Below are positions 14,467 through 38,346 of a DNA stretch of 45,851 nt, one piece after another. The notes under the pieces were generated by a model that was not told the DNA's origin, ran no database searches, and was given only the letters and a program-made list of their open reading frames with translations. The DNA lies in NCBI GenBank assembly GCA_012271015.1, contig JAAXHD010000012.1, positions 1 through 45,851 of the forward strand, read 5' to 3'. Position 1 is the first letter of the stretch, and the number at the start of each line of letters is the position of its first letter. The position numbers were made by a program, and so were the translations under genes. Origin of the DNA: Candidatus Poribacteria bacterium. Its GTDB lineage: Bacteria > Poribacteria > WGA-4E > WGA-3G.

Positions 14467-15639
14467 ATGAGCAACGATCAATCACCGAAGAAAGAGGTCT
14501 ACCGTGCCCAGGCTTTTGCTGATTTCAAACCAGAACTCTCAGCCCCCGGTGCTACACCGGAAAGACTGGAGCATCTAAGGGAACACGGTTTCGTGATCAT
14601 CAACGACTTTGTCGACAATCCGTGGATTCCAATCCTCCGGGAGGCAGGTCGTCGGGTTACGCAAGCGTGTGCGCCTGATAACGGCTATGACGTTCTCGAC
14701 TGCTCAAAGGGATACGTTCACCGGGCAGGCGAGCATGAACCTTGGGCAATCCGAGGTATACTTCATCCGGCATTTAAAGAACCCGTTTTCGCTGAATTTT
14801 ACGGATCGCCTGATTTCACAGGCTTCGTCAAAGCGTGGTGTGCGGTAGAACCTGAAGACCTTGTCATGACGAACATACTCCTCTGGTGCAATCCCCGTAA
14901 AAAAGAGAACAGACTCGGATGGCACAGAGACACGACATGGTGGGGTACTGGAGAGAGTTACTTCTCACAAGAAAGTCGCACAGAAGGTCCTGAAGCCTAT
15001 TCCGAAGAGGTTGAGCAGATCCGCTGGAAAGAAATTCAGGAAGAAAATGAGAAGCGAATTACCGAACGGAACAGTGTCGGTATGTTTTTAGCACTCGCAG
15101 ACGACGAATGCCATGAACTCGTTGCGGGTAGCCACAGTCGATGGCGCACCCCGCTTGAACACGACGTACTACTCCCACAATCCATGAAGGATCAGGGTGT
15201 ACCGTATACACCGAGTTGGAACGGCACAGATCCGCTCCCCGGACAGGTCGCGATCCGGCTCAAGGCAGGTCAAGCACTTATCCGTAACGGTGTGACCATC
15301 CATACCGGACACACCGTGCCTGAGCGTGAACGCAATACCCTCTCCATCGGTTGGTCGAAATGGAGCGGTCCCTCCGAGGAGGAACCGAAGGTCGTCGATG
15401 CACGATTCGCATGGCAACTCGATCCTGCCGTTCGCGAGGCACTTCCGCACGAATGGATGAAAACAGCGTGGGATCGTTGGGCGGCAAACCACAAACTCGG
15501 CGATAGACTTGAAGACCGCTACGCAGGCTTTGACATCCAACGCATCAAAGCGGGTGAAGTTGTCGGATGGCGCACCGAACTAGAACGTCAAGCCGCCGCC
15601 GCAGGCGAGGCATGGGAACAATACCAAACCGTATCCTAA
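14467..15639 (+). CDS. Phytanoyl-CoA dioxygenase (PhyH) family protein
   Basis: HGFVIINDFVDN...GWHRDTTWWG...ALADDECHELVAGSHSRW...RNGVTIHTGHTVPERERNTLSIGWSKWSG; HxD and distal His/Arg pattern. Confidence 0.9.
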   Translation: MSNDQSPKKEVYRAQAFADFKPELSAPGATPERLEHLREHGFVIINDFVDNPWIPILREAGRRVTQACAPDNGYDVLDCSKGYVHRAGEHEPWAIRGILHPAFKEPVFAEFYGSPDFTGFVKAWCAVEPEDLVMTNILLWCNPRKKENRLGWHRDTTWWGTGESYFSQESRTEGPEAYSEEVEQIRWKEIQEENEKRITERNSVGMFLALADDECHELVAGSHSRWRTPLEHDVLLPQSMKDQGVPYTPSWNGTDPLPGQVAIRLKAGQALIRNGVTIHTGHTVPERERNTLSIGWSKWSGPSEEEPKVVDARFAWQLDPAVREALPHEWMKTAWDRWAANHKLGDRLEDRYAGFDIQRIKAGEVVGWRTELERQAAAAGEAWEQYQTVS

Positions 15640-15710: not shown

Positions 15711-15903
15711 GGCTGCGAACCCTTCTATTTCCGAACTATGGTAGATTCTACAATTAACATTACATTGTTGAATTGTAGGAGGGGAAGAAATTGAAGAAAC
15801 GCCCCAGCAAAAACCCCCAGCAAAAACACTCCGATTCCCGACTGTCAGGGTAGGGGTCGCGATTCGGAGGGTACGCCCCCTACAGAAGAGATGTAAACTT
15901 AAT

Positions 15904-16024
15904 CAGGACTTACGCAAAATGAGCAAATATCGGACAGTCAGACGCAAAAATCGATAATTTCGTCCCTTAAACCCCCTCAATCCCCCTTATCAGGGGGACT
16001 TTCAGAGGGAATGCGTAAGTCCTA
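15904..16024. mobile_element. 121-bp MITE-like element with 12-bp terminal inverted repeats and TTAAT target duplication
   Basis: AGGACTTACGCA (15905-15916) / TGCGTAAGTCCT (16012-16023) perfect TIRs; TTAAT at 15899-15903 and 16025-16029; no coding capacity; apparent empty site at about 38320. Confidence 0.82.
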
Positions 16025-16255
16025 TTAATTATGAGTTTTACTATAACTTTGCTAATTTTTCGTTTGAATAAACGGTGGCACTTCAGCTATCCAATTGGGA
16101 TAGTAGTTGGAGGTATCGTCTGATCAGGTGTTTATCAAGGGATCGGGTGGTTCTGTGTTCGGATATGGAGATTTTTCGCGAAAGAAAGTGAACGCAAAAA
16201 TGCTAAAAGCATACAGGAAATCAAAGAATTTGGGTTAGCCTTATTCTGGAAAGTC

Positions 16256-16783
16256 TCACCGCTCCGCCTCTATATGAGAGGCAATAATAGCGATACCCCC
16301 CGTGAGGGTCATGCAACCCAAAATAGAACCTGCTGCAACTGATTTCATCCGAGACGATCGCATCCTCGCCTGATAGGCATCGGCGTAAAATTTGATATAC
16401 TCAGCCGATTTTCCGATCAATCTCTCAGGTGGTGGATTCGGTGGACGGATATGATATCGAAGCAGCAGGTTGAAAGCCCCCGCGGCACTCATTGCAGCCG
16501 TACCGTAAAAAAGAGCGTCCTGCCTTTGTCCGAGCGTCGCGTCAGCGATGAATCCCGTCATCAAACCACACATCCCTGCGGCGAAAGTCGCACTCATGCC
16601 TGCTCCAAAAGAAGCCAGCACCTCCACATCGCGTGTGGCATCCGCCGACGCTGCTGCTTTTGCCTGAAGACGTATCGAGTCCTGCTCCACAAGTGGCAGC
16701 TGCGCATAATGTTTAGCACCACAGCCTGTAAGTGCAATAATCCACACACTTGACAAACACCATAAACATCGTAAGAATTTCAC
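16256..16783 (-). CDS. Small predicted lipoprotein with hydrophobic segments, unknown function
   Basis: MKFLRCLWCLSSVWIIALTGCGAK (lipobox LTGC); ATGA 4-bp overlap with the upstream deacetylase gene. Confidence 0.6.
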   Translation of the reverse strand: MKFLRCLWCLSSVWIIALTGCGAKHYAQLPLVEQDSIRLQAKAAASADATRDVEVLASFGAGMSATFAAGMCGLMTGFIADATLGQRQDALFYGTAAMSAAGAFNLLLRYHIRPPNPPPERLIGKSAEYIKFYADAYQARMRSSRMKSVAAGSILGCMTLTGGIAIIASHIEAER

Positions 16784-18515: not shown

Positions 18516-18639
18516 TTTTTTAATGATCGCTCCTGGACTGCTGCGTCCGTTGTCCTTGCAGGTTTTCGGTTAATCCAACAAGGTTTTTGAAGTCAAAGTT
18601 ATACTGCAGACGAACGCAAATTGCGCAAGTCCTAAATTG

Positions 18640-38217: not shown

Positions 38218-38335
38218 AACATTACATTCTTGAATTGTAGGAGGGAACTCCGATTCCCGACTCTCAGTGAGTTGAGTCGCGATCAGGAGGGTACGCCCCT
38301 ACAGAAGATATGTAAACTTAATTATGGACTTTAGT
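38218..38335. repeat. Dispersed intergenic repeat, second copy near 15758-15903
   Basis: Shared acattacatt.ttgaattgtaggaggg...cgattcccgact.tcag.g...gtcgcgat..ggagggtacgcccc.tacagaaga.atgtaaacttaat. Confidence 0.8.
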
Positions 38336-38346
38336 ATAATTTAGCA

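Follow-up and report, generated by a model that had tools for sequence, protein, structure and literature searches.

Organisation of the locus

The window, by which we mean the whole 45,851 bp stretch of Candidatus Poribacteria DNA that was analysed, contains a MITE in an intergenic position between convergent reading frames. The frame upstream ends at position 15639 and has a sub-threshold PhyH-like match. On the other side, the adjacent reverse frame (16256-16783) gave no Pfam match and the reverse frame after it encodes a polysaccharide deacetylase. The features are listed below, with the basis for each in brackets.

15738-16052, plus strand: dispersed host repeat interrupted by the MITE, with imperfect inverted, MITE-like ends; outer limits approximate (alignment of copies)
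15899-15903, no strand: left target-site duplication TTAAT (sequence; empty site AAACTTAATTATG in other host-repeat copies)
15904-16024, plus strand: 121 bp MITE, a 119 bp core between C and A (sequence; 12 further full-length copies)
15905-15916, plus strand: left terminal inverted repeat (TIR) AGGACTTACGCA (an exact match to the end of the IS701-type element G000:C117:3575-4672)
15982-15997, plus strand: internal hairpin CCCCCT-TATC-AGGGGG, an interior module of this MITE's subfamily (sequence, folding)
16012-16023, minus strand: right TIR TGCGTAAGTCCT (sequence)
16025-16029, no strand: right target-site duplication TTAAT (sequence)
38218-38345, plus strand: uninterrupted copy of the host repeat, a paralogous empty site (alignment)

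A sequence-only reading of this DNA had described a 121 bp element with perfect 12 bp TIRs, TTAAT on both flanks and an internal CCCCCT-tatc-AGGGGG hairpin. Each of these features was located, the TIR positions being exact. The two TIRs are 12 bp each and 100% complementary. Single bases, C at 15904 and A at 16024, separate them from the TTAAT duplications, and hence 121 bp lie between the duplications while the core (15905-16023) measures 119 bp. The element is short, non-coding and bounded by TIRs, as a MITE should be. When folded as single-stranded DNA, the core scored z = -5.0 against shuffled sequences (0 of 200 folded as well). Elsewhere in the window a lone AGGACTTGCGCA end lies on the minus strand at 18622-18633, without a partner. 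We rejected this as a second element; it is a lone remnant or a chance match, 2.6 matches being expected in the window at two or fewer mismatches.

The MITE interrupts a copy of another repeat

The same reading had placed a natural empty site at 38218-38335 and proposed insertion into one copy of a dispersed repeat. Our alignments bear this out. When the flanks were joined with one TTAAT they aligned, through the junction AAACTTAATTATG, to the 38 kb copy and to contigs C205 and C297. The empty copy is ~86% identical and is paralogous, not orthologous. Together, the TTAAT duplication and the paralogous empty copies provide both marks of insertion, a target-site duplication and an empty site. 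Besides the 38.2 kb position in the window, the host repeat occurs on several other contigs.

The host repeat ends in the imperfect inverted sequences TATGGTAGATTCTACAATTAA and TATAGTAAAACTCATAATTAA. Inverted ends of the form TATNGTA...AATTAA were seen at window positions 15738-16052 and 38218-38345 and at loci L087-L092. The interrupted repeat looks like another MITE, and the arrangement may be that of a MITE within a MITE.

Copies of the TIR are abundant and share one duplication register

In the genome (4.94 Mb in 438 contigs) there were 151 exact TIR matches, compared with 2 for a reversed-sequence control. Perfect TIR pairs spaced 102-132 bp apart numbered 33, with none in the control. 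These differences exclude chance. The 121 bp MITE has 12 other full-length copies, at 85-92% identity. The remaining element families in the genome have only the TIR in common with it. Given such diverse interiors, only the ends look to be required.

An exact 5 bp duplication was found one base outside the TIR for 32 of 60 elements in this genome, where shuffled partners predict 0.87. When relatives were included the count rose to 122 of 214 (1.5 by shuffling). The duplications are mostly A/T, and the motif YTAR was contained in only 6 of the 32. The copies are many, dispersed and differently flanked. A search of the genome for the TIR had been proposed, with flanks common to all copies, or absence of the TIR elsewhere, as outcomes that would tell against a mobile element; neither was seen, for the TIR lies at well above 100 sites whose flanks differ. 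At G000:C58:11838-12204, near a contig end, two TIR elements nearly abut in tandem (L031-L033, L066); one of them may have inserted next to, or within, a copy already present.

TIR pairs with the 102-132 bp spacing were present in 44 of the 60 genomes searched, this genome included, with no control matches. Within the genus they were found in 35 of 36 genomes (own included), at up to 150 per genome. The distribution extends further. When a wider search pattern was used, TIR pairs were present in 13 of 20 genomes from other groups encoding a relative of the transposase described below, and the same was true of 30 out of 145 genomes drawn from a single class around Brasilonema sp. CT11 (G073).

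An IS701-family element carries the same ends

An autonomous transposase with matching ends, the other search proposed from the sequence, was found in the same genome. The element (G000:C117:3575-4672) is 1,098 bp in length, has perfect TIRs as on the MITE and is flanked by the duplication TCTTT. Its 337 amino acid transposase scores 361.7 bits against NF049921 (IS701 family), for which the cut-off is 250. Hence, the MITE and an autonomous IS701 element have the TIR in common. Residues D70/D71, D157 and E263/E268 are invariant among 14 related transposases; assigned by motif only, they could form a DDE triad. The relatives are ~47-71% identical and occur in Poribacteria, Cyanobacteria, Caldilineales, Methylococcaceae, Pyrinomonadaceae and Bacteroidetes. 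Most of those checked were flanked by the MITE's TIR, many with matching 5 bp repeats. The assembly has a single intact copy of the transposase; other copies are partial, most of them at contig ends.

The strongest candidate for mobilising the MITE in trans is the NF049921 transposase. The evidence consists of identical TIRs, 5 bp duplications in one register, dispersed copies and paralogous empty sites. Hence, from sequence comparison, we consider it highly probable that this MITE is non-autonomous and that a DDE transposase of the IS701 family (NF049921 subgroup) mobilises it in trans. The transposase would bind the 12-13 bp ends, pair them and cut, and insertion would be at an AT-rich target with a 5 bp stagger. 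The interior would be filler, of any sequence and often palindromic. In kind this is an ordinary MITE, and it is now linked to its transposase. The sequence-only reading had not identified the transposase family, nor had it noted the single-base spacer, the diversity of interiors or the length pattern described next.

Element lengths in Poribacteria

Lengths are quoted as GG..CC, which is the core minus 2, and three adjacent length ranges were searched for TIR pairs. We fetched 160 elements, chosen from printed lists with obvious near-duplicates omitted; with loci collected earlier these gave 215 distinct sequences. Lengths clustered near 87-89, 97-98, 109-112, 117-119, 127-129 and 149-150 bp. 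The peaks were near 88, 98, 118-119, 129 and 150 bp, with a spacing of ~10.2-10.5 bp. Because relatives show the 88 and 98 bp peaks, an interpretation based on this genome, that of one constant length near 119 bp, was dropped.

At the level of the 215 distinct elements, which as copies are non-independent, the best period was 10.5 bp (R 0.36; 0 of 5000 smoothed nulls). For amplified clusters, defined by at least 3 copies at 20% divergence (n = 16), the period was 10.1 bp (R 0.87; 0 of 1000 nulls). The 10.5 bp signal of amplified clusters was weaker at 30% and 35% divergence (p ~0.04 and ~0.03, respectively), and at 30% a 7.5 bp period fitted better. When all Poribacteria clusters, singletons included, were merged at 30% divergence the periodicity vanished. 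In three genomes (G025, G036 and G037; e.g. L383, L384, L387), 118 bp MITEs with a GATGCACTTCGCATCTGGGCGAGTACGCCGCAAAACT-like insert of ~31-32 bp reach 150 bp, a gain of ~three helical turns, and other families also contain a similar insert.

Element lengths in an independent set

The independent set comprised 46 elements, mostly cyanobacterial, with loci taken as supplied by the search and not hand-chosen. These gave R 0.51 at 10.5 bp. Tested against the Poribacteria phase (V-test), 29 sequence clusters gave V 0.47 and p 1.7e-4. With 20 clusters the phase p was 7e-4, and there a 13.4 bp period fitted better. The main peak was at 86-91 bp; without it, the phase test gave p 0.014. A test with hand-labelled families had a similar outcome, though it is weaker evidence owing to the labelling, and in it the phase for other phyla was ~1.5 bp longer than that for Poribacteria.

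Explanations for the length pattern

The ends of these elements are ~60-130 bp apart, which is less than the persistence length of DNA. Efficient pairing would then occur only on compatible helix faces, a step that has moderate support. We propose that lengths cluster by helical turn because close ends must face compatibly for synapsis. The transposase would thereby filter lengths, leaving amplified families near 88, 98, (108), 119, 129 and 150 bp. We lean, by a little, towards the view that IS701-type MITEs are length-quantised by the helical repeat (~10.5 bp), in nearly one phase in Poribacteria and Cyanobacteria, with the interior otherwise free. The data suggest, and do not prove, this helical-phase constraint on the synapsis of short elements, and the signal fades under coarse clustering. 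Families of 125, 114, 111 and 127 bp were off phase, and families have modules in common, so they are not fully independent. Length shifts within families, from a hand-compiled set, were mildly in phase (p 0.045).

The main rival bears on phasing only. It holds that these are ordinary IS701 MITEs whose length peaks were inherited from a few ancestral seed elements, an account that we regard as tenable but short of probable. Modules common to families, such as the CCCCCT hairpin and GTAGCATAAACT, are expected from shared descent, as is the weakening of the Poribacteria signal by coarse clustering. Conversely, at least 3 unrelated hairpins sit at 87-90 bp in Poribacteria and several other unrelated interiors at 86-91 bp in Cyanobacteria, and the Poribacteria and mostly cyanobacterial sets agree in phase.

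If helical phasing holds, these MITEs are a natural helical-twist experiment, in which hundreds of elements with free interiors record the end spacings that were accepted. Genome sequences would then reveal the geometry of IS701 synaptic complexes, and there would be a parallel with Paramecium IESs. The prediction would be directly testable with a small, defined TIR. In the partial literature covered we found no report of such a length pattern for bacterial MITEs, which argues only weakly for novelty. A review of prokaryotic MITEs (PMC10969869) uses neither "periodic" nor "helical" in its main text.

Alternatives for mobility

A different transposase might mobilise the MITE, e.g. a second IS701-like protein (L061:2432-3316) encoded beside the autonomous copy. 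This shorter frame ends near a lone TIR and probably belongs to a decayed element. It matches IS701 models, below their cut-offs, and a matching TIR end follows at L061:3338-3349. However, we found no TIR on its left to pair with that end, only the NF049921 transposase lies between two perfect TIRs, and relatives of the latter carry that TIR in many phyla. We therefore judge a different source of transposase very unlikely.

Alternatively, the elements might be immobile, either palindromes of the REP type or terminators, which the host retains because they supply RNA hairpins or space its genes. Strong hairpins, the site between convergent frames and REP-like cores in many families would suit this view, but it is scarcely credible given exact 5 bp duplications at over half of the copies, empty sites, TIRs identical to those of the transposase element, and the placement of 6 of 8 hairpin copies examined in the genome between two TIRs (the other 2 being cut by a contig end). 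No terminator signal was found inside the MITE, and a terminator role was rejected.

Comparison with known systems

Searches of the literature returned no related paper for the TIR string and none for Poribacteria MITEs, and among papers combining MITE, IS701 and insertion sequence, IS701 was mentioned just once or twice. Among insertion sequences of the IS701 family (NF049921, transpos_IS701_2), the autonomous copy in this genome and its relatives in other phyla have 12-13 bp TIRs and a duplication register identical to those of the MITE, which lacks the gene. IS701 itself reportedly makes 4 bp YTAR duplications. The MITEs depart from this canonical pattern with 5 bp duplications, and the insertion sequences of the NF049921 subgroup do likewise.

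Prokaryotic type II MITEs, such as Nezha and Chunjie (PMC10969869), are similarly short, non-coding and multicopy, have TIRs and target duplications, and resemble insertion sequences only in the TIRs. By inspection, the subterminal sequences of the MITE and the insertion sequence differ beyond the TIR, which sets it apart from type I. Judged by its sequence, the 121 bp MITE is consistent with type II as PMC10969869 uses the term. Unlike Nezha and Chunjie, one TIR here is common to many unrelated interiors across several phyla, and lengths appear to cluster by helical turns. A 114 bp element in another genome (L357; G005:C271:25634-25747) has subterminal sequence resembling the ends of the IS701-type insertion sequence in OX638352.1 (L144); it is apparently a deletion derivative, i.e. 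a type I MITE, beside many type II ones.

A periodic length dependence would have precedents. Paramecium IESs have a ~10.2 bp length periodicity, for which DNA looping between the ends was proposed (PMC3464196). Their lengths are periodic at ~10 bp, as those of the MITEs may be, but their excision, in a eukaryote, is the work of a domesticated piggyBac transposase. Helical-twist experiments with IS50, as they are cited there, gave a ~10 bp periodic dependence on length (Goryshin et al. 1994, as cited in PMC3464196). According to that citation, the IS50 lengths were an engineered series, whereas the lengths described here are those of a natural population of bacterial MITEs.
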